From: Desulfuromonadales bacterium
Lineage (GTDB): Bacteria > Desulfobacterota > Desulfuromonadia > Geobacterales > Pseudopelobacteraceae
Direction: 5' to 3'
Assembly: GCA_016650295.1 (NCBI GenBank)
Contig: JAENWA010000111.1
Span: 1 to 62,164 of the forward strand
DNA: 62,164 bases
The translations under genes and the position numbers were made by a program. Shown piece after piece: positions 7,578 to 43,794 of this stretch (its first letter is position 1; each line of letters starts with the position of its first letter). The notes beneath the pieces are model-generated. The model searched no databases, was not told where the DNA came from, and saw only the letters and a list, made by a program, of their open reading frames with translations.

Positions 7578-10064
7578 TTAACTGCGTAGCGTGACTACCG
7601 TGGCTCCGTCTCTTCCCTCATGCGCCTCACCCGGCCGGTATTCCTCCACCAGCGGGTGGCGGGCCAGGTGCTCCCGCACCGCCTGGCGCAGGCGCCCTGT
7701 GCCGAGGCCGTGGATGACGCGCACCTCCCGCAGGCCACCCAGCGAGGCGTGGTTGAGGAACGGCTCCAGCATCTCCAGCGCCTCTTCCACCCGCAGTCCG
7801 ATCAGCTTCAGTTCCCGCTGCTCGTCCTCGACCGCATCCACCTTCCAGGCGCTCTTGACCGGCCGCTGCTGCTTCACTCCCTCCTTTTTGAGGGGGGAAC
7901 GCAGATCGTCCAGCGCCACATCCAGCTCAATATTTCCGGCCCTGACCCGCACCTTGCCCTGTCTGGGGAGGAGCTGCAGCACCACGCCGTTGTGACCCAG
8001 GGAGCGGATCTGCACCCGGTCGCCCGCCGCAACATCGCGCAGGGGAGGCTGCTCTTCATCCTCGACTGTGCGCGGTTTGAGCTCTTCCAGCAGTTCCTGC
8101 TCGCTCTTGCGCAGCTGGTCGATGATCTCCGAACGCCGTTCGCGCTTGTACTCCTCCAGCAGTTCATTCATACGGCGGCGGCTGGTAGAGATCAATTCGC
8201 GGGCCTCGCTGTACCCCTTTTCGCGGGCCTCGCGCTTGGCCCTTTCGATGCCGGCTGCACGGGTATCCAGCTCCTGCTGCGTGCTGCGGACCTGCTCCTG
8301 CTGCTGCGACAGCCCGCGCCGGGCCTCGTCCAGTTCCTCACGTTTGCGGTGCAGTTCGGCCAGAAGGGAGGTGAATTCTTCTCCGGCCGTGCCGAGCATC
8401 TCGCGGGCAAATTCGATCACCCGCTCCGGCATACCGAAACGCCGGGCGATCTCGATGGCGTGGGAGTGCCCCGGCTCGCCGCTGATCAGCCGGTAGAGCG
8501 GGGTGTAGGTGGCGGAGTCATACTCCATGCCGGCGTTGAGCATGCCGGGGGTGCGGTGGACGTAGCCGATGATCTCCGACAAATGGGTGGTGGCGATCAC
8601 GCTTGCTCCGCGCTGCCGCAGGTCGCGCAGTACGCCGCAGGCGATGGCCGCCCCCTGCTGCGGCTCGGTGCCGGCTCCCAGTTCATCCAGCAGCACCAGC
8701 GTGCGCGGACCGGCCTGGTCCAGGATGGCCGCGATGCGGGCCACATGGGCCGAGAAGGTGGACAGGCTCTGCTCGATAGACTGTTCGTCGCCGATATCCA
8801 CCAGCAGCGTATCCAGCAGCGGGAAGCTGGAGCGGGCGCCGTTGGCCGGCACCGGGATGCCGCACAGGGCCATCAGGGTCAGTACCCCGGCGGTCTTGAG
8901 GGCGATGGTCTTGCCGCCGGCGTTGGGGCCGGTGATGACCATCACCGACGCAGAATTTGATCGCATATCTGCGTTGGCTTCGTCGGGGGCTCCTCGACGT
9001 ATGTTCATATACGCCTGCGTCGCCCCCTCCTCGCCGCCTTGATCTGCTTCCAAATTCTGCGTCGGGGTCCTTTTTCCCAATCCCAGATCAAGCGGCTCCA
9101 CCCGTGACAGGGCACCCTTGTGCTGCAGCATCAGCAGCAGCGGATGGCGGGCTTCGCTCAGCCTCAGTTCTCCGGTACTGTTCATCCGGGCGCTTTCCAG
9201 GCTGTACAGATCGGCAAAACCGGCGATGCCGTTGAGTACGTCCAGGGTCACCAGTGTTTCGAAACAGGCTCCGATCTGCGGGGCATCCTCGCGGAGCCAG
9301 GCCGAGAGCTGCCGCAGGATGCGGATCTCCTCGGCCTTTTCCTCGGCGTTCAGGTTCTCCAGTTCGTTGACGAAGGGGATGATCTCCAGCGGCTCCATGA
9401 AGGCGGTCTCGCCCGACGAGGAGACATCGTGCACGACCCCCTTGACCATCCCCTTGGAGTCCATCCGGACCGGGATCACCCAGCGCCCGGAACGCTGGGT
9501 GATGAAATCGTCCTGTAGGAAGATCTCGATGTTGTTGTCGCGGACGATCTCCTCGATCTTCTTGCGGATGCGGGCGGAAAGTGAGCGTTTGGCCCGGCGG
9601 ATCTCCCGCAGCTGCGACGAGGCGCCGTCCATGATGCTGCCGTCGCTGTCGATGGAGGCGGCCAGTGGTTCGAGGATGTCGGCGAACGGCTTCAGGGGCG
9701 GATCAATCGCCCGCAAGAGCGGGATATCGCCCCGCGGGGCAAACTGGCGCGAGACATCGCTGAAAATCCGCAGCACCGGCAGGAAAACCAGCAGTTCCCG
9801 GGGGGCCAGGAAGGCGCCTGACGGACGGATGGTCTCCAGCAGGGGGCGGATGTCTTCGAACTCCGCCAGGCGGAGATCGATGCCGAGGCTGGACAGTGCC
9901 CGGATCTCCGAGACCCTCCCGGAGATGGAATCGATGCTGGCGATATCGGTTTGCGGCGCGCTTTCCATCAACTGGCGGCGGGAGACGTCGCTGTGGACGC
10001 GGGTGGCAATCTCGGCCAGGATCTTGTCGAACTCCAGTCTTTTCAGGGTTTCAGGGGTAATCAT
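7578..10064 (-). CDS. mutS2: Endonuclease MutS2 with an in-frame palindromic insertion
   Basis: 828 residues. MutS2 proteins are ATPases that bind branched DNA, suppress recombination and, in some bacteria, act on stalled ribosomes. Order: MutS2 core and lever (1-330), ATPase with Walker A TGPNAGGKT near 376-384, Walker B LVLLDELGAGTEP, the coiled coil (about 510-630, rich in Q/E/R), and a C-terminal Smr domain with VIHGLGTGRLRQAV. The Smr LDLRG motif is degenerate here (LKLIG). Residues about 334-372 are encoded by a 117-bp palindromic element inserted exactly in frame before Walker A; without it the length would be 789. The start overlaps the upstream stop as ATGA. Confidence 0.93.
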   Translation of the reverse strand: MITPETLKRLEFDKILAEIATRVHSDVSRRQLMESAPQTDIASIDSISGRVSEIRALSSLGIDLRLAEFEDIRPLLETIRPSGAFLAPRELLVFLPVLRIFSDVSRQFAPRGDIPLLRAIDPPLKPFADILEPLAASIDSDGSIMDGASSQLREIRRAKRSLSARIRKKIEEIVRDNNIEIFLQDDFITQRSGRWVIPVRMDSKGMVKGVVHDVSSSGETAFMEPLEIIPFVNELENLNAEEKAEEIRILRQLSAWLREDAPQIGACFETLVTLDVLNGIAGFADLYSLESARMNSTGELRLSEARHPLLLMLQHKGALSRVEPLDLGLGKRTPTQNLEADQGGEEGATQAYMNIRRGAPDEANADMRSNSASVMVITGPNAGGKTIALKTAGVLTLMALCGIPVPANGARSSFPLLDTLLVDIGDEQSIEQSLSTFSAHVARIAAILDQAGPRTLVLLDELGAGTEPQQGAAIACGVLRDLRQRGASVIATTHLSEIIGYVHRTPGMLNAGMEYDSATYTPLYRLISGEPGHSHAIEIARRFGMPERVIEFAREMLGTAGEEFTSLLAELHRKREELDEARRGLSQQQEQVRSTQQELDTRAAGIERAKREAREKGYSEARELISTSRRRMNELLEEYKRERRSEIIDQLRKSEQELLEELKPRTVEDEEQPPLRDVAAGDRVQIRSLGHNGVVLQLLPRQGKVRVRAGNIELDVALDDLRSPLKKEGVKQQRPVKSAWKVDAVEDEQRELKLIGLRVEEALEMLEPFLNHASLGGLREVRVIHGLGTGRLRQAVREHLARHPLVEEYRPGEAHEGRDGATVVTLRS
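8947..9063. repeat. 117-bp palindromic element inside mutS2
   Basis: The ends are perfect 13-base inverted repeats (GACGCAGAATTTG at 8947-8959 and CAAATTCTGCGTC at 9051-9063), and the interior also pairs imperfectly along most of its length (for example GGGGGCTCCTCGACGTAT with ATACGCCTGCGTCGCCCCC). At 117 bases it is 39 codons, so it preserves the host frame. The encoded segment is polar (EADQGGEEGATQAY..RRGAPDEANADMR), unlike any MutS2 part. Confidence 0.85.
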
Positions 10065-36769: not shown

Positions 36770-36799
36770 TTGACAATAAGTTTTTACAAATTGTATACA
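36770..36799 (+). promoter_or_regulatory. Sigma-70-type promoter of the envelope operon
   Basis: TTGACA at 36770-36775 and TATACA at 36794-36799 with an 18-base spacer. The predicted start is near 36806, about 40 bases before the aptamer, so the riboswitch would be in the 5' leader. Confidence 0.6.
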
Positions 36800-36843
36800 A
36801 TTGTAAAATATTTAACATATAAAAATAAATTAAATTAATCATA

Positions 36844-36928
36844 CCTTGGAAAAGAGCAAACTCTGAGTAATCAGGGGACGCAGAGTCACAGATCCATAAT
36901 TATGGATGGCTGGTCCGCCGAAGAGGGT
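36844..36928 (+). ncRNA. GEMM-I cyclic dinucleotide riboswitch, predicted cGAMP type
   Basis: The aptamer shows the GEMM-I landmarks in order: GAGCAAAC, a stem capped by a GNRA loop (CTGA-GTAA-TCAG), GGGACGCAGAG followed by TCAC, a second hairpin (ATCCATAATTATGGAT), and GGCTGGTCCGCCGA. Aligned with the Vc2 c-di-GMP aptamer without gaps, the ligand-contacting position 20 is A (36855) rather than G. A20 is the known hallmark of the GEMM-Ib subclass that prefers 3',3'-cGAMP, described from Geobacter relatives. The class is clear; the ligand is inferred. Confidence 0.85.
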
Positions 36929-36952
36929 CAATTGCCATTTTCATATGGCTTT

Positions 36953-36989
36953 AACGTGCCCATTCAGTTTGAATGGGCACGTTTTTTAT
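36953..36989 (+). terminator. Terminator of the riboswitch expression platform
   Basis: ACGTGCCCATTC and GAATGGGCACGT pair perfectly over 12 bases around AGTTT, followed by a T6 run. It lies 25 bases after the aptamer and 70 bases before the first gene, so the switch should act by transcription termination/antitermination. Whether ligand turns expression on or off cannot be read directly. Confidence 0.92.
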
Positions 36990-37060
36990 TTTACTACACA
37001 ACAGAACTCGGAGCATGTCAATTCCGAGATATCTAATTAAAAACAAGGAGGAATCTACAA

Positions 37061-38566
37061 ATGAAAAGAAAATTAATTGCTGGATGGTCATGGGGCGATG
37101 GAAGTAAGCGAGTATGGCGTTCTACAGCCATGATGTTCTGTATTCTACCTCTCTTGTTGATGTTCGGATGTGCAGGTACAACAACATTCACGGCTTATCC
37201 AACAAAGATAAATCCCTATATTGCAAGTATTCAAACCCGAACCCCAATCGATTTCACTCAATGTTTGATCAGTGAGTGCGAAAGTAAAGACCTGATATTG
37301 TATAATATGGAACGTGGACGCATTGCTCAACTTACTGGCGATCTTGATAACAGCCAAAAAGATTTTCGTGCGTCAATAGAGCAGATTAAGCTGAATGATG
37401 AAAAAGCCCATATTACTGCTTCAGGCATTGGATCAAACTTCGCGGCAGCTGCGGTTAATGATAATGCTATACCATACGTAGGATCTGGTTATGAGAGAGT
37501 AATGCTTCATCATTATCAAGCAATGAACTATATTAAGAAACAGGATCTCGATGGTGCCGGAGTCGAGGTTCGTGTTGCGAACGCTGAGCAAGAAGCTGCC
37601 CTAAAGCAATTCGAAGGTGATCTTGAAAAAGCACAAAAAGACGCTGAAGAGAAAAATGTTAATTCCGATAGTAACTCAAAAATAAGCAGCCAATATGCGC
37701 AGATGGATGAAGTTGCCGGAAAAGTGAAAAACTCATTCCAAAATGCATATACTTTCTATCTCTCAGGTTTTATTTATGAGCTTAATAAACAGTACAATGA
37801 TGCATACATCGATTATAAAAAAGCTTTGGAAATCTACCCTGAAAACACTTACCTTCAAAAAGACGTTCTCCGGCTCGCAGATACTCTTGACATGCGAGAA
37901 GATATTTCGGCTCTAAGCGAACGATTTAATATTTCGCCTATTAAAATCTCGTCAGGAAGTGGTGAGCTTCTTGTAATTTACGAGGATGGCTTTGCTCCTC
38001 AGAAACAAGAAGTTAAAATTCCGATCCCCGTTCCACGCGTAGGACTGTTAGCAATTGCATTTCCGATCTATAAGGAATCATGGACTCGTCAAGTCCCGTT
38101 GAACGTGTCGGATAACACCACTCAGATCGGAATAACTGAGCCTATCTGCGATTTTAGAGCGCTGGCAGTTAAAGCACTTAAAGAGCAGATTCCAGTCATC
38201 GCAGTTCGTCAGGTAGTTCGTGCGGCAGCTAAAGGAGCAGCATCATTAGGGGCGAAGAAAGTTGCTGATCAACTTGGAGTAGGTTTTCTCGGGACATTAA
38301 CGGCCAGTATTTATAATTATGCTAGTGAAAACGCTGACCTTCGTAGCTGGTTAACTCTGCCATCAAATGCTCAAATACTCCGAACACAACTTCAGCCTGG
38401 TATGCATAAAATCGCTCTAACATCCCCAGTAAGTGCGGGCCCATTTTATGTAGACGTAGAAATTTCAGCCGGTGGGAAAACTATCCTTCATGTAGTTCGT
38501 GCAGGATCACAGTTCTATATGTCTTCTACACCATTTAAACTTCAAGCGCTCTCAGCTCAATTATAG
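37061..38566 (+). CDS. COG3014-like lipoprotein with TPR-like repeats
   Basis: 501 residues. An N-terminal membrane segment ends in the lipobox LLLMFGC (Cys37), so the mature protein is probably a lipoprotein. The body has helical TPR-like units (GFIYELNKQYNDAYIDYKKA then LEIYPENTYLQKDVLRLADT) and a coiled-coil stretch with QAEQE/EKAQKDAEEK. It resembles COG3014 proteins, which in Vibrio and Shewanella sit beside YcfL and LpoB genes; the same neighbours follow here. AAGGAGGAATCTACAA precedes the ATG. First gene under the GEMM-I riboswitch. Molecular role unknown, likely in the cell envelope. Confidence 0.7.
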   Translation: MKRKLIAGWSWGDGSKRVWRSTAMMFCILPLLLMFGCAGTTTFTAYPTKINPYIASIQTRTPIDFTQCLISECESKDLILYNMERGRIAQLTGDLDNSQKDFRASIEQIKLNDEKAHITASGIGSNFAAAAVNDNAIPYVGSGYERVMLHHYQAMNYIKKQDLDGAGVEVRVANAEQEAALKQFEGDLEKAQKDAEEKNVNSDSNSKISSQYAQMDEVAGKVKNSFQNAYTFYLSGFIYELNKQYNDAYIDYKKALEIYPENTYLQKDVLRLADTLDMREDISALSERFNISPIKISSGSGELLVIYEDGFAPQKQEVKIPIPVPRVGLLAIAFPIYKESWTRQVPLNVSDNTTQIGITEPICDFRALAVKALKEQIPVIAVRQVVRAAAKGAASLGAKKVADQLGVGFLGTLTASIYNYASENADLRSWLTLPSNAQILRTQLQPGMHKIALTSPVSAGPFYVDVEISAGGKTILHVVRAGSQFYMSSTPFKLQALSAQL

Positions 38567-38574
38567 GAGGTGAT

Positions 38575-39663
38575 ATGAGAAACATCAGTGCCGCAGTGAT
38601 CTGTGTTTTTATGATATTTATCGGAGTAACGGCTGTTTTTGCGGATGAAATAACGACAGATGAGCCCGTACCGATGCTACGCGCTGCCATATTCGTGCAG
38701 AATCATGCAGGTCCGGAATTTAGAGGTCAAATAGATCCACTTACTAATCAGCTTGCGGCACGCCTAAATGAGAAAGGATTCTCTGTAATAGATAGACGTG
38801 ATGTGTTGACTAAATTCAGTGAAAGCCGTGAGAGTGATGCAACAACCATTAAAGCCGCAAAAACTTTAGAGCAGCTTTCAAAATACGACAAGAGCGACAG
38901 TAGGTTGGAAGACGCTTTAACCGGTGGCTCTGCTTTACGAATTGCTCGCCAGATTGGTGCGGATTACTTAATAATGGCGACCATAAATTCCCTCAGTCAA
39001 GAAACTCGCACATTTAAGGGGCAGGGGACAGTTTACGGTACGAACAATGAGACGACCATCTTCAATCTGAAACTTGCTGTCAAGGTTCTGGAAGGTGGAC
39101 AGGGAGGTGCAGTCTATGGAGATGTTGTGACTACTTCCGAACGCATAGCCGTAGGAGAAAACCTAGTAATAGCCACCAATGATATTTATCCGCGTCTCAT
39201 AGAAGCAGCAGCTGCAAAAATTGCCGATAATATTTCAAATAAAATTGAACTTATAAGAAGTGTCAAAGTAAATATACCTGCTGCGGTTAAATTTACAGTA
39301 ACAAGTAATATCAAAGGTTCAACAGTGGAACTCGATGGCGCCGTATTAGGCTCGACTCCCGGAATATTCTCAGCAGAGCCCGGTATCCACACTTTGCGGG
39401 TATCAAAAGAATGGCTGACAAACTGGGAGCGGACAGTAAATATTACTCCGAATCAAACAATTAACGTTGCTTTGGAACTTTCAGATGAAGGCATTCAGCG
39501 CTATACAACATTGGAGAGATTCAAGGCAGAAATCAGCATTGCCAAAGAACAGAGCGATGCAGATGCCTATGCCAAAAAGAGGGTCGCTGAAGGAGAAAAG
39601 CAAAAAAGGGAGCGTAGTTATGAAAGGTACCAGGGAGCTCCCACAACCAATATAATTCATTGA
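38575..39663 (+). CDS. Exported CsgG-like protein with PEGA domain
   Basis: 362 residues with a signal peptide (cleavage after about residue 23, VFA-DE). Residues about 30-235 resemble the CsgG/curli-assembly and LpoB alpha/beta fold (LAARLNEKGFSVIDRRDVLT, ALRIARQIGADYLIMATINS). Residues about 240-305 are a PEGA domain (STVELDGAVLGSTPGIFS, EPGIHTLRVSKEWLTNWER), a cell-surface beta fold. The C-terminal tail is charged. It starts 9 bases after the preceding gene (GGAGGTGAT is its RBS), so it is in the same operon. Confidence 0.65.
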   Translation: MRNISAAVICVFMIFIGVTAVFADEITTDEPVPMLRAAIFVQNHAGPEFRGQIDPLTNQLAARLNEKGFSVIDRRDVLTKFSESRESDATTIKAAKTLEQLSKYDKSDSRLEDALTGGSALRIARQIGADYLIMATINSLSQETRTFKGQGTVYGTNNETTIFNLKLAVKVLEGGQGGAVYGDVVTTSERIAVGENLVIATNDIYPRLIEAAAAKIADNISNKIELIRSVKVNIPAAVKFTVTSNIKGSTVELDGAVLGSTPGIFSAEPGIHTLRVSKEWLTNWERTVNITPNQTINVALELSDEGIQRYTTLERFKAEISIAKEQSDADAYAKKRVAEGEKQKRERSYERYQGAPTTNIIH

Positions 39664-39685
39664 CGAACTATACAAGGAGCTGATA

Positions 39686-40654
39686 ATGCGTCTCGTTTCA
39701 ATAAAATTACTGACAGTTATGACATTCCTTTTGACTCCTTTTCTGCTTCATGCAGCGGAACTGAGCCAGGGCGAAAAAGACACCATTTTTATCGGCGAGT
39801 TGAAGTTACAGTCTTCTGTTGCAGAACAAGCAAATAATCGAGGTCAGCTGCTCGAACTTAAAAGAGCATTGCAATCTCTTGACAGCCAACTGATTTCTTC
39901 GCTTAACGCAACCAGGGTATTCCAATTAGTTGAGCGCAAACGAAAAGGAGACCTGGAACTCGAACAGGGCTTCGCAGCTGCTGTAGTCGATCCTAATGAT
40001 AAATCAGCTGCTCAAGCAGGAAAAATGGCTGGTGCTAAATTTGCATTTTTGCCACAGATTGATGGATTTGAAGATAACACCGAAAGGATTGAACAGACAG
40101 CCATCGGTCGGACTGTTATTGATCGAAAACTATTTATTTCAGCTGTTGTTCAGGTCGTTGACACTACAACCGGCAAACTACTTCCCGATTCCCCAAGCAT
40201 CACTGTCAGCAAAGAGGAAACGATCAATGCTCGATCTGGACAGGCACAAACAAGTGACAAGTTGATTGTCGAGCTTGCCAAAGAGGCCGCCCAAAAACTT
40301 TCGCAAGAGTTAGTAGCACTCCTTCGCCCGGCAAAAATACTGGCGGTTACTGGCAAACAACTCACAATCAACAGGGGAACTGAAGCAGGATTCCAAAATG
40401 GAGAGACTGTTGAAATCTTCGCCTCACGGAACATCAAAGATGATGACACCGGAGAGACATTCCGAGAAGAGATACCCGTTGGTAAGGCAACAATTGTCCG
40501 TTCAGACAAGAAACAAAGCACTGCCAGCATCAGCGGGGAGAATTTTGGAATCGCTAAAGGCTGCGTCGTAAAGCTATTGCGTACTGAAGCAAAGAATAAC
40601 ATGGGAAATGACGATTCAACTCCAGGTTCTAGCGACAACCCTGCAAAATGGTAG
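39686..40654 (+). CDS. Exported CsgG/FlgT-like envelope protein
   Basis: 322 residues with a signal peptide (MTFLLTPFLLHA-AE). The N-terminal part resembles the CsgG-like fold (ISSLNATRVFQLVERKRKGD, AGAKFAFLPQIDGFED). The C-terminal ~100 residues (ILAVTGKQLTINRGTEAGFQ, then IPVGKATIVRSDKKQSTASI) look like the small beta domain found at the C-terminus of the flagellar protein FlgT. AAGGAGCTGATA precedes the ATG, 22 bases after the PEGA gene. It probably builds or stabilises an outer-membrane-associated assembly with its neighbours; this is inference from fold and context. Confidence 0.6.
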   Translation: MRLVSIKLLTVMTFLLTPFLLHAAELSQGEKDTIFIGELKLQSSVAEQANNRGQLLELKRALQSLDSQLISSLNATRVFQLVERKRKGDLELEQGFAAAVVDPNDKSAAQAGKMAGAKFAFLPQIDGFEDNTERIEQTAIGRTVIDRKLFISAVVQVVDTTTGKLLPDSPSITVSKEETINARSGQAQTSDKLIVELAKEAAQKLSQELVALLRPAKILAVTGKQLTINRGTEAGFQNGETVEIFASRNIKDDDTGETFREEIPVGKATIVRSDKKQSTASISGENFGIAKGCVVKLLRTEAKNNMGNDDSTPGSSDNPAKW

Positions 40655-40758
40655 CGAATCAATAGCTATGCTTCATTGCATCTCAAGAAGAACCTGCTAG
40701 ATTATCATGTCAATAGAATTGGTTTATTCTGAGAGCGAATCAAAAATGGAGGACGAAA

Positions 40759-41211
40759 ATGAACAAGATAACCGCTAGATCATTATGTGTCGCAACTCTC
40801 GTTGTTGGATACCTTAGCTTACTGATAACAGGATGCGCCATCACCAGCGGAACTGAGGCATCAGGAAAAGTGGTTGAAAATAACCGTAAAGCCGAGCTCA
40901 ATAAATCAATTGTCATTAACAATCGAGGACTTGCCAGCGACATTGAGATCACTGACATGCGAAGCACTTTTGTAGGTAAAATGCTGAAGGTCCAGGTATC
41001 ACTTCGTTCAAATAATAGGGATACGACACCAATTCAGTACAAATTTAATTGGCTTGATGTCCAAGGTTTTGAAATCAATGCGAATCAAGCTTGGAAACCA
41101 TTCATGGTTTACGGAAAAGAAACAAAAACTATCCAAGGCGTTGCTCCAGATCCACGTGCGAAAGAATTTAAGTTAAAGATTCGAGACCCTGATTCAGCTG
41201 ACGACTACTAG
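40759..41211 (+). CDS. ycfL: YcfL-like lipoprotein (DUF1425)
   Basis: 150 residues. Lipobox LSLLITGC with Cys26. The domain (SIVINNRGLASDIEITDMRS, LKVQVSLRSNNRDTTPIQYK, FNWLDVQGFEI) is that of YcfL, a periplasm-facing outer-membrane lipoprotein family. In E. coli ycfL is directly upstream of lpoB, and the same order occurs here. The 105-base gap to the upstream gene has no clear terminator, so it probably stays within the riboswitch operon. Confidence 0.82.
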   Translation: MNKITARSLCVATLVVGYLSLLITGCAITSGTEASGKVVENNRKAELNKSIVINNRGLASDIEITDMRSTFVGKMLKVQVSLRSNNRDTTPIQYKFNWLDVQGFEINANQAWKPFMVYGKETKTIQGVAPDPRAKEFKLKIRDPDSADDY

Positions 41212-41238
41212 CAATCAAATATAAATCGAGGTATCTAA

Positions 41239-41847
41239 ATGAAAAAGACAAATCTCAAAGTAAATCTCATTATTCTACCATGTTTAGCGCTGCTTGCTGG
41301 ATGTGCTACTGTTCCAAACGTTCAATACGGCGATGCCGGATCGGCGAAACCCATTAGTACGGAATTTGGCTCTTCAGATCTTCAGCAGATTGCTGAAACA
41401 ATGGTTGATTCTCTTGTAACCTTTCCTCCAATTGTTGAATTAACTGCACAGAAGCGCCCAGTAATTTCAGTTGACAAGGTTAAGAATAAAACTATGCAAC
41501 ACATTGATACCGAGTCGGTTACCGATACTCTCCGCACAAAACTAATAAAATCTGGGAAATTTAGGTTTATAGACAGAACTACTGATGCTGCAGCTATTGA
41601 AGAAATAAGAACTCAGCAAGATAGCGGACTTGTCGATAGAAAAAAAGCGGTCAACTTTGGTTCACAAACCGGAGCCGATTTTATATTGACGTCAAATTTT
41701 TCTGAGATTCGCCAAAGAGCAGGGAGTGTTACGGACGTCTATTACAAATTTACTATGAATTTAAAGAACTTGAGAACTGGAGTCCTTGAGTGGTCAGATG
41801 AGAAAGAAATTCGTAAGGTCTTTAACAAATCTCTTTTTGGTGGCTAA
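41239..41847 (+). CDS. lpoB: Penicillin-binding protein activator LpoB-like lipoprotein
   Basis: 202 residues. Lipobox LALLAGC with Cys22. The globular part (PVISVDKVKNKTMQHIDTES, KFRFIDRTTDAAAIEEIRTQ, GADFILTSNFSEIRQ) is the LpoB fold. In enterobacteria LpoB crosses the periplasm from the outer membrane and activates the glycosyltransferase of PBP1b; this lineage lacks proof of that partner. The linker after Cys22 is short. It follows ycfL by 27 bases and GAGGTATCTAA precedes the ATG. Confidence 0.85.
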   Translation: MKKTNLKVNLIILPCLALLAGCATVPNVQYGDAGSAKPISTEFGSSDLQQIAETMVDSLVTFPPIVELTAQKRPVISVDKVKNKTMQHIDTESVTDTLRTKLIKSGKFRFIDRTTDAAAIEEIRTQQDSGLVDRKKAVNFGSQTGADFILTSNFSEIRQRAGSVTDVYYKFTMNLKNLRTGVLEWSDEKEIRKVFNKSLFGG

Positions 41848-41880
41848 TACTTATTATAGGTACTTAAAGGAGCTGAGAAC

Positions 41881-42468
41881 ATGAATAAAATATTAGTTAG
41901 TATTGTGGTTATGTTTCTCGCAGTACTTTGTAGTAATCATGTGTATGCTACTGATGTCCGGCCATATCTAGAGGCTCACGTAGGTGCGGTTTTCAGCGCT
42001 GATAGCAATTTGGGTACGGACAAAGTTACTTACGACCCTGGTTTGGTAGCTGGTGGGGCTCTTGGACTTGATTTTGAATTCCTTCGAATCGAAGCAAATA
42101 TTGACTATCGTCGAGCTGATATATCCAAAGTCTCATCAAACAACGTAAACAGTGATTTACAACTTTTGAGTTACATGGTTAATGGCCACTTGGTTGCACC
42201 ATTGCAGTTTCCGGTAAAACCTTATCTTTTGGGCGGAGTTGGCTTTGCGACTGCCTTTGTTAGTGATTTTGCTGGTTCATCTAGCAGTAAACAAAGTAAT
42301 ACCAGATTTTCTTATGAAGTGGGTGCTGGCGTCGGCTACGAGATCAAAAGAAACGTGACACTTGATATTAACTACCGTTATCTAGGGGTATCTGATTTCG
42401 ATTTTAACGGGACTAGATTCAGCTATTCTGCTAATAATGTACTCTTTGGCGTAAGGTATTCTTATTGA
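41881..42468 (+). CDS. Outer-membrane beta-barrel protein (OmpA-like porin type)
   Basis: 195 residues. Signal peptide MNKILVSIVVMFLAVLCSNH followed by VYA, then eight amphipathic strands typical of small OMPs (YLEAHVGAVFS, LVAGGALGLDFEF, YLLGGVGFATAFV, RFSYEVGAGVGYE, VTLDINYRYLGVSDF) and the C-terminal aromatic signal VLFGVRYSY for Bam insertion. Last gene of the operon, with an intrinsic terminator 54 bases downstream. Confidence 0.82.
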   Translation: MNKILVSIVVMFLAVLCSNHVYATDVRPYLEAHVGAVFSADSNLGTDKVTYDPGLVAGGALGLDFEFLRIEANIDYRRADISKVSSNNVNSDLQLLSYMVNGHLVAPLQFPVKPYLLGGVGFATAFVSDFAGSSSSKQSNTRFSYEVGAGVGYEIKRNVTLDINYRYLGVSDFDFNGTRFSYSANNVLFGVRYSY

Positions 42469-42522
42469 TTTATAAATTGTTTGCTCATTTAAATAAGATA
42501 AAAAACTGTCGTTTTCTAAATA

Positions 42523-42556
42523 AGAGAGCATATACATAACAATGTATGCTCTCTTT
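42523..42556 (+). terminator. Terminator of the envelope operon
   Basis: AGAGAGCATATACA pairs with TGTATGCTCTCT (one bulge), followed by TTTT. It closes the transcription unit that starts at the riboswitch promoter. Confidence 0.82.
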
Positions 42557-42620: not shown

Positions 42621-42959
42621 TTGAAAAAAAACATGTTCATGTTCTTTTTGCGGCTGGTAATTGTATCCCTGGTGTATTCGCCGGCAATTGCAGCCTCAAT
42701 TGATATTGAACATGAAGTCAGACAGATGGAGCAGCAATCGGGTCAATCGTACGAATAACCGGGACAGCCTGGACGGCCTTGGAATGACGATGGTCGGAAC
42801 GGTTCGTTACTGTCCCTCATCGGACGATTGTCCCTATGACAACGCCTACTGGAACGGGTCGCAGATGGTGTTCGGCAATGGCTATGCCGCTGCTGACGAT
42901 GTGGTGGGACACGAATTGACTCACGCGGTACATCCCGCTTCGGCGTGCCCACCGTACTG
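42621..42959 (+). pseudogene. Decayed M4 (thermolysin-like) metallopeptidase
   Basis: From the TTG at 42621 one frame gives a signal peptide (FFLRLVIVSLVYSPAIAA) and the start of a proregion, then stops (TAA, 42756-42758). In another frame, around 42781-42935, comes a catalytic-domain piece: DNAYWNGSQMVFGNGYAAAD then DVVGHELTHAV, with the HExxH zinc motif. The frame ends soon after (HPASACPPY). The large prodomain between and all of the domain behind the zinc helix are missing, so deletion and frameshift have destroyed the gene. A short unrelated tail (TLKISAGKLVVDGVVVK) and a run of ten G (43029-43038) follow. Confidence 0.75.
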
Positions 42960-43256
42960 AATGGGACCTTGAAAATCAGCGCCGGGAAACTGGTCGTAGA
43001 CGGAGTTGTTGTAAAATGAACCGTCACCGGGGGGGGGGCTGAGAGCGGCCGGGCAGGAACTTGTATTCTTGAGGGTGCTGGCACCACGCCCGGCTAGAGG
43101 GGATATGATTTAACTGGGGCGCAGAATGGCAAGCGTGGCGGTGACGGTGAAGAATCAGGAGGGTAAGTTGGTGGCGCACGGAACAACAACGTTGATGGTG
43201 TCTTCGGGATGACAGTGTCAAGGTGTAGACCTGACACAGTCATCCTGCACTGATGA

Positions 43257-43526
43257 TCAATAATGATACCGAGCCTGAAGAAAATCGATTCTGTCATCAC
43301 GGACAAGATAGACAATTCGGTGTTCTTGTGTGAGGCGTCTCGACCAAGTGCCGGATGAAAGGTATTTGAGCGGCTCTGGCTTGCCGATGCCAGCGAATGG
43401 ATCGCGCATGATTGCTTCAATCAAATCAAAAGCCCGCAAAGCGACTTTTCGGTCGGTCTCTACCCAATGGCGCAAGTCTTCACGGAACTCTGGTTGAAAA
43501 ACAGTATCCCGTTGCTTAGTCTTCAA
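43257..43526 (-). CDS. yoeB: YoeB-type toxin (RelE superfamily)
   Basis: 89 residues from a TTG at 43526 (CGAGG upstream; a TTG at 43532 is the alternative). No ATG is available. The sequence VFQPEFREDLRHWVETDRKV, then FAGIGKPEPLKYLSSGTWSR then RLTQEHRIVYLV and the C-terminal ARYHY match YoeB/Txe ribosome-dependent mRNA interferases, including the catalytic Glu/Arg/His pattern and terminal YHY. It overlaps the end of the antitoxin gene, so translation is coupled. Confidence 0.88.
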   Translation of the reverse strand: MKTKQRDTVFQPEFREDLRHWVETDRKVALRAFDLIEAIMRDPFAGIGKPEPLKYLSSGTWSRRLTQEHRIVYLVRDDRIDFLQARYHY

Positions 43527-43794
43527 GGCCAACCTCGGAACGAAGCGATTTCAATGAAGATGCTGTGCCGCTCCCCTTCAGAGCACGTTCCAGCGCAGAA
43601 AGAAGCCTTTCGGCATTTTTGGGGGAACGCATCAGGTGAGAGCTTTCCACCAAACTTTGTAGTTCATCAGCAGCAATCATAGCTACATTGCTTCCATTGC
43701 GACGACGAATGAGGACGATCTCTCGATTTTCTGTTACCTCGTCACAGAGTCCGGCGAAATTTGCTCTGGCATTGGTATAGGTTGTTTGTAACAT
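43516..43794 (-). CDS. yefM: YefM/Phd-type antitoxin
   Basis: 92 residues. The N-terminal Phd/YefM DNA-binding fold is visible (TTYTNARANFAGLCDEVTEN then REIVLIRRRNGSNVAMIAAD). The C-terminal part (LLSALERALKGSGTASSL then KSLRSEVGLED) is the flexible toxin-binding tail. GGAGGTGAACAAAC lies before the ATG at 43794. A TGTACA palindrome upstream is the likely operator. The pair sits among gene debris. Confidence 0.88.
   Translation of the reverse strand: MLQTTYTNARANFAGLCDEVTENREIVLIRRRNGSNVAMIAADELQSLVESSHLMRSPKNAERLLSALERALKGSGTASSLKSLRSEVGLED

Follow-up and report, generated by a model that had tools for sequence, protein, structure and literature searches.

A predicted GEMM-I riboswitch of mixed A20/G21 type ahead of a six-gene envelope operon in a Desulfuromonadales bacterium

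The leader and the operon it precedes

In a 62,164-nt stretch of DNA from a Desulfuromonadales bacterium (contig JAENWA010000111.1; the whole stretch is the window), we found that six exported genes on the forward strand are preceded by a promoter, a GEMM-I aptamer and an intrinsic terminator, the arrangement proposed in an original prediction made from the letters alone. The promoter is of the sigma-70 type, with TTGACA at 36770-36775 and TATACA at 36794-36799 separated by an 18-nt spacer; it was read directly, since the automated promoter scan lists only -10 elements ending in T and so passes over this one. A covariance search with RF01051 placed a full-length aptamer (model positions 1-87) at 36845-36922 on the plus strand, scoring 50.2 bits against a gathering cut-off of 35 (E 7.4e-7). 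It is the sole above-threshold GEMM-I match in the window and one of at least 18 copies in the source genome. With helix P1, in which 36843-36847 pair with 36924-36928, the aptamer spans 36843-36928, and P1 pairing covaries over 40 leaders of its subtype, A20/G21 (0 of 50,000 permutations).

The covariance-model alignment puts an A at the position equivalent to Vc2 base 20, the selectivity base (36855, model position 11), in agreement with the original prediction. This A is unpaired and stands 5' of the pairs G21-C46 (36856-36881) and C22-G45 (36857-36880), which enclose a GUAA-capped hairpin; the G21-C46 pocket pair is also a feature of Vc2. A47 and G48 occupy 36882-36883, A47 (36882) lying 27 bases 3' of A36855, the expected spacing. 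G48 instead of A48 was considered as a defect of the aptamer and rejected, since 10 of the 21 distinct A20/G21 aptamers, the window's among them, have it. The C92 equivalent is the first C of CCGAA (36918), by alignment and the numbering in an excerpt of PMC3764141. The intrinsic terminator hairpin at 36953-36983 has 14 pairs and is followed by the T-rich tract TTTTATTTTA; it begins 34 nt past the second C of CCGAA (Vc2 C93) and has no overlap with the aptamer. As far as sequence can tell, the predicted cyclic-dinucleotide-type GEMM-I riboswitch ahead of six exported envelope genes is genuine.

The six genes, all on the plus strand, are separated by gaps of 8, 22, 104, 27 and 33 bp, and the operon ends at a hairpin with a T run at about 42522-42555. 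The first, g1 (37061-38566), encodes a lipoprotein of a conserved family, with a lipobox recognized by eye and a tetratricopeptide-repeat (TPR)-like N-terminal part for which Pfam TPR matches stay below their cut-offs. These are the only Pfam matches of g1, whose original COG3014-like label is not confirmed. Its AlphaFold2 model has a mean predicted local distance difference test score of 78, and a Foldseek comparison with the PDB gave no match at E <=0.001; the best (E 2.3e-3) were TPR proteins and uninformative. The exported g2 product (38575-39663) had been called CsgG-like as well as PEGA-like; only the PEGA domain (PF08308) scores above cut-off, and domain searches gave no CsgG match, so that the CsgG label is not confirmed. 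For the exported g3 product (39686-40654), described originally as CsgG/FlgT-like, CsgG holds (PF03783 above cut-off) and FlgT_C matches at E 0.048 only. The remaining genes are as predicted: g4 (40759-41211) encodes a YcfL-family (DUF1425) lipoprotein (PF07233, 95.9 bits against a cut-off of 28.3), g5 (41239-41847) the lipoprotein LpoB (TIGR02722, 186 against 110.55 bits; PF13036, 167 against 22.3 bits) and g6 (41881-42468) a small outer-membrane beta-barrel (PF13505 above cut-off). The product set is most safely described as a putative outer-membrane lipoprotein/CsgG-type assembly.

Aptamer types, terminator geometry and distribution

Aligning 68 aptamer matches from 65 loci (56 distinct rows), we found 23 distinct A20 rows that carry C21-G46 and 21 that carry G21-C46; G20 occurs with both pairs. 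The A20/G21 set was enlarged by 25 sites, hand-picked for a plausible hairpin from 60 matches, over 141 genomes, to a DNA pattern that fixes A20 and G45-C46 and leaves the terminator unconstrained. Where a terminator was called, it is separate from the aptamer in 43 G21 leaders and overlapping in 3 (n=46), whereas it overlaps the aptamer 3' strand in 26 C21 leaders and is separate in 1 (n=27); geometry is thus associated with the 21-46 pair at a Fisher P of 2e-15, with related genomes not independent. Within the A20/G21 subtype, 40 of 43 scored leaders have a separate terminator and 3 an overlapping one; three more of the 46 distinct aptamers were omitted, namely L237 and L238 (no anchor) and L242 (no called terminator). 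L159 was scored as overlapping, though by eye it shows a separate hairpin, and of the 56 rows L016, L123 and L125 (no terminator called) and L006 and L069 (no anchor) stand outside the geometry counts. The only C21 leader scored as separate is L015:356-444, whose hairpin, near a contig end, is weak (-4.9 kcal/mol).

Both geometries have characterized counterparts. According to an excerpt of PMC9262584, the ON switch pilM can form either its aptamer or its terminator but not both; the OFF switch Cd1 allows the two to form together, in competition with an antiterminator. A separate terminator thus resembles the Cd1 form and an overlapping one the pilM form, and since G21 leaders are separate and C21 leaders overlapping with few exceptions, we predict that the ligand shuts the present operon off. 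Its terminator is not built from the aptamer 3' strand, as an ON-class terminator would be, and aptamer and terminator can coexist as in Cd1. Moreover, contacts of the Geobacter 3',3'-cyclic GMP-AMP (cGAMP) aptamer 4YAZ include U13, A14, C15, A41, A42 and C75, according to an excerpt of PMC7288161; mapped by spacing, which is our own step, U13-A14-C15 would equal Vc2 U19-A20-C21, that is, the C21 type. The leader instead reads G19-A20-G21 with C46 and lacks the U19-A20-C21/C21-G46 signature. It is therefore best read as combining A20 with a cyclic di-GMP (c-di-GMP)-type frame and OFF-type geometry.

The source genome contains both types: among its at least 18 GEMM-I copies, 11 are A20/C21, 2 are A20/G21 (the operon leader and L004) and 5 are G20/G21. 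In genome G084, which carries a homologous led operon, at least 15 copies include 1 A20/G21, again the operon leader, and 1 G20/G21. Both genome counts are minimum values, since scoring covered 150 of 284 first-look candidates in the one genome and 150 of 245 in the other. Four tandem pairs of C21-type aptamers occur in the source genome (L015/L017, L007/L009, L011/L012 and L013/L014), with an overlapping terminator called in 7 of their 8 aptamers. Three further loci of this genome (G000), L001, L002 and L003, score best in Rfam as c-di-GMP-I-GGC variants.

Within the order, 34 of 141 genomes have a member of the g1 family; for the class as a whole the figure is 41 of 277, and four of the seven extra class-level genomes match only half of the protein. 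Downstream of g1 in 26 named loci, LpoB is encoded in 25 and YcfL in 23; the one locus without LpoB, L074, ends at a contig end. All six genes are present in the same order in G039, where the operon lies between 300-bp direct repeats (L036:2872-3171 and 9238-9537, 99% identical), which suggests a recent insertion, a duplication or an assembly effect. At E 1e-30, g1 was not found in three other genomes of the source genus; together with the G+C content of the operon region 36845-42556, 41.7% against about 53% on both flanks, this indicates that the operon was probably acquired.

Leaders were sought with Rfam on the 26 named loci and with our own model, R1, on 57 + 7 + 7 loci, jointly covering the 41 genomes with g1. 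A clear GEMM-I aptamer stands directly ahead of g1 in two, the source genome and G084, a Geotalea-like metagenome-assembled genome that falls in one genus group with G085. In the latter (locus L083) the aptamer at 285-361 is followed by a terminator hairpin and by g1, which starts near 442, and the leader is of the same kind, with A20, G21-C46 and a separate terminator. At 18 copies per genome, chance alone would place a correctly oriented GEMM-I within 300 bp in about 0.0007 of genomes, and two such leaders in 41 genomes have a P of about 4e-4 with relatedness ignored. In a g1 tree of 34 rows, L083 falls into a group with G086 and G063 that does not include the source g1. The aptamers, judged by eye, also belong to different sequence groups, that of the source genome being closest to L153 and that of L083 to L147, L150, L144, L166 and L167. 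Because the two aptamers differ and the two operons are not sisters in the g1 tree, GEMM-I control was probably recruited to this operon twice, separately.

With a clear leader in only 2 of the 41 genomes, we rejected the idea that GEMM-I control is conserved with the operon. Further GEMM-I matches near g1 were rejected as its leaders: L069 is on the opposite strand, L081 lies about 4.6 kb upstream, L089 and L039 are downstream on the opposite strand, and a weak match of 10.9 bits at L253 is about 1.4 kb away. In G195 the contig may end ahead of the g1 start, so that a leader is possibly unseen there. The matches L039:3290-3366 and L089:12617-12705, in two Geotalea-group genomes, are A20 aptamers of the C21 type at a distance of about 3.6 kb from the g1-LpoB pair, and by eye they lead another lipoprotein-like gene. 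In G090, a borderline GEMM-I-like match to R1 (L170:2273-2349, 11.1 bits) lies about 145 nt before g1, with E 0.12 in the R1 scan and E 0.0028 over 1.2 kb. The element (L170:2273-2440) has the 3' end GGGGTTGCCGAAA, and between that end and g1 lie a hairpin and a run of Ts. Rfam found nothing GEMM-I-like in this region and G090 was not counted as having a leader; the element may be a degraded or divergent one.

Ligand and direction of control

We propose that RNA polymerase would start at about 36807 and transcribe the aptamer. A bound cyclic dinucleotide would close P1, hairpin 36953-36983 would then form unhindered, and transcription would stop. In the ligand-free RNA the aptamer strands could instead pair with the linker and the 5' arm of the terminator, and transcription would continue into the six envelope genes. 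Candidate antiterminator pairings are present: the aptamer core (36874-36888) pairs with the linker and terminator 5' arm (36946-36961) with a duplex energy of -17.4 kcal/mol (for the source leader alone, P 0.0015 uncorrected and 0.038 corrected for the scan), and in free RNA the P1 3' strand (36920-36928) pairs with 36958-36965 of the 5' arm. In folding calculations, upstream pairing of the 5' arm was 0.48-0.59 in free RNA, 0.40-0.50 with the aptamer forced and 0.01-0.02 with aptamer and P1 forced, and under constrained folding of 39 leaders it fell in 33, was equal in 6 and rose in 0. We also count as support that the same kind of leader precedes the homologous operon in G084 although the subtype makes up so few of the GEMM-I copies in either genome.

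Several results weigh against an OFF switch of this design. Covariation tests, constrained folding and a swap control did not reveal a statistically specific antiterminator. Complementarity between aptamer tail and 5' arm was without covariation (P 0.058 for 22 leaders, 3 of them G20; P 0.52 for 40 leaders). Of 46 sliding-window tests, one aptamer segment gave P 0.0004 with the 5' arm; a stronger signal, between the segment just before the terminator and the 3' arm, comes from the terminator hairpin itself. With re-anchoring, the lowest P among 14 antiterminator tests was 0.010. The drop on forcing P1 was unspecific: swapped terminators gave 0.333 +/- 0.021 against 0.342, with a drop at least as large as that observed in 8 of 25 swaps, and the source leader's own tail was equalled or bettered by 16 of 37 foreign ones. 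(L140 was omitted from the later sliding-window, re-anchored, folding and swap tests, and one more leader, lacking a P1 helix, from the swap control, which used 38.) The aptamer has two non-standard pairs near its pocket, A36884-C36916 and U36886-U36914, and 39 of the 41 g1 genomes are without a clear leader. Moreover, GEMM-Ib genes of G. sulfurreducens are reported to fall on gacA deletion, which implies ON control (PMC6456294, in part). Since antiterminator complementarity does not covary and swapped terminators behave alike, the OFF assignment derives from geometry, by which we consider OFF a good deal more probable than ON.

Both candidate messengers have plausible enzymes in the source cell. 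Of 20 GGDEF hits, 16 have readable motifs, 14 with the canonical D and 2 with the serine of Hypr-type enzymes (L063, GHLVGSRVL; L064, GHLVGSRML). The closest PDB match of the L064 protein, aligned across GHLVGS, is 6d9m (E 3.7e-40), a GAF-domain diguanylate cyclase fusion that we take to be the Geobacter Hypr enzyme. Homologues at E 1e-60 occur in 47 of the 141 genomes of the order; of 30 fetched, 19 were motif-readable and all carry S, and 11 were unreadable, also by a second, looser motif. In G084, 13 of 16 GGDEF hits were readable, with one protein counted twice, and a single one (L218) has the Hypr serine. Thus c-di-GMP is very probably available in the source cell, and cGAMP would be so in principle. 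With A20, cGAMP is a likely ligand, and c-di-GMP possibly a second one. Selectivity cannot be read from A20 by itself, since the G20A change lets a c-di-GMP-I riboswitch bind cGAMP as well (PMC7288161) and the natural omcST riboswitch is reported to be sensitive to both dinucleotides (PMC6456294), each according to excerpts. The original rule that A20 marks the Geobacter GEMM-Ib cGAMP subclass is therefore too coarse: A20 and the Hypr-type GGDEFs agree with that assignment and G21-C46 and the separate terminator do not, so that the subclass reading is, on present alignments, partly supported.

Taken together, we favour by a narrow measure of confidence a transcription-attenuating A20/G21-C46 GEMM-I riboswitch whose ligand, likely cGAMP and possibly also c-di-GMP, turns the operon OFF. 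The strongest competitor, a possible though less probable one, is that c-di-GMP is the main cellular ligand and A20 merely loosens selectivity, as in the G20A mutant and the dual omcST. The c-di-GMP-type pair beside base 20 and the predominance of canonical GGDEFs speak for this, as does a passage of PMC9262584 in which base 20 contributes to selectivity without strictly determining it. However, both independently led operons have A20 while G20/G21 copies coexist in the same genomes, which makes A20 look like a maintained choice. That Hypr-made cGAMP instead switches the operon on, as in characterized Geobacter GEMM-Ib, agrees with A20, with Hypr-type GGDEFs in both genomes with a clear leader and with the gacA result, which includes GSU0181-0183. 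We think it unlikely, because the leader is without both the U19-A20-C21 signature and a terminator overlapping the aptamer 3' strand, and we found no structure by which bound ligand would block the separate hairpin.

A decaying leader, still recognizable but no longer switching, so that the operon would be constitutive or attenuated by the terminator alone, would account for the two mismatches near the pocket, the many homologous operons without a clear leader and the possibly degraded element in G090. This appears improbable, given the 50.2-bit score with pocket bases, P1 and GNRA loop kept, the same arrangement in L083 and the closely similar aptamer core, by eye, in L153.

If the favoured OFF reading is extended to the whole cell, the same messenger, cGAMP, would act with opposite signs, C21 leaders being ON and G21 leaders OFF for envelope operons, a role recruited here at least twice; we offer this broader scheme as speculation, on balance doubtful. 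Were A20/G21 the OFF arm of cGAMP signalling, the inference that A20 denotes a Geobacter-type cGAMP ON switch would fail for most of the 43 scored A20/G21 leaders. More interesting than the subclass label is the A20 aptamer on an OFF-type platform. The leader places envelope lipoproteins of the LpoB and CsgG types under a riboswitch for cyclic dinucleotides. There is precedent for GEMM-Ib acting on envelope lipoproteins, since the regulon described in PMC6456294 includes an operon of uncharacterized lipoprotein transpeptidases, GSU0181-0183. Judged by titles and abstract openings, no paper was found on a GEMM-I or cGAMP leader with YcfL-LpoB-type lipoproteins. The operon is a new member of the GEMM-I regulon; we do not claim the A20/G21 subtype itself as undescribed.

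Surroundings and comparison with known systems

Downstream of the operon, a short open frame at 42661-42960 with an HELTH motif resembles, by eye, a zinc metallopeptidase remnant, and a YoeB-type toxin and Phd/YefM antitoxin pair lies at 43257-43794 on the minus strand. No relatives of LpoB were found in the phage collection.

As the original prediction stated, the order of g4 and g5 is that of enterobacteria: in E. coli K-12, too, ycfL, the DUF1425 gene, stands directly ahead of lpoB. The surroundings differ, the E. coli annotation having hinT upstream and thiK-nagZ downstream where the operon here has g1, g2 and g3 upstream and g6 downstream. E. coli LpoB activates PBP1B by docking on its UB2H domain. 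In contrast, UB2H (PF14814) gave no match at E 0.001 in the source genome (99.1% complete), an absence that is a warning rather than proof, as the domain is divergent and the positive control matched in 6 of 14 genomes, above cut-off in 3. The proposal that a second messenger tunes the peptidoglycan-to-outer-membrane link is weakened accordingly.

Compared with known riboswitches, the leader shares with Geobacter GEMM-Ib (Gs1761, pilM) the GEMM-I fold, A20, a transcription terminator and the control of exported envelope genes. It differs in having G21-C46 rather than C21-G46 and a separate terminator, from which the opposite sign is predicted. With Cd1, a c-di-GMP-I transcriptional OFF switch, it shares the possible coexistence of aptamer and terminator, and with Vc2 the G21-C46 pocket pair, whereas it departs from this c-di-GMP-I type by having A20 instead of G20.

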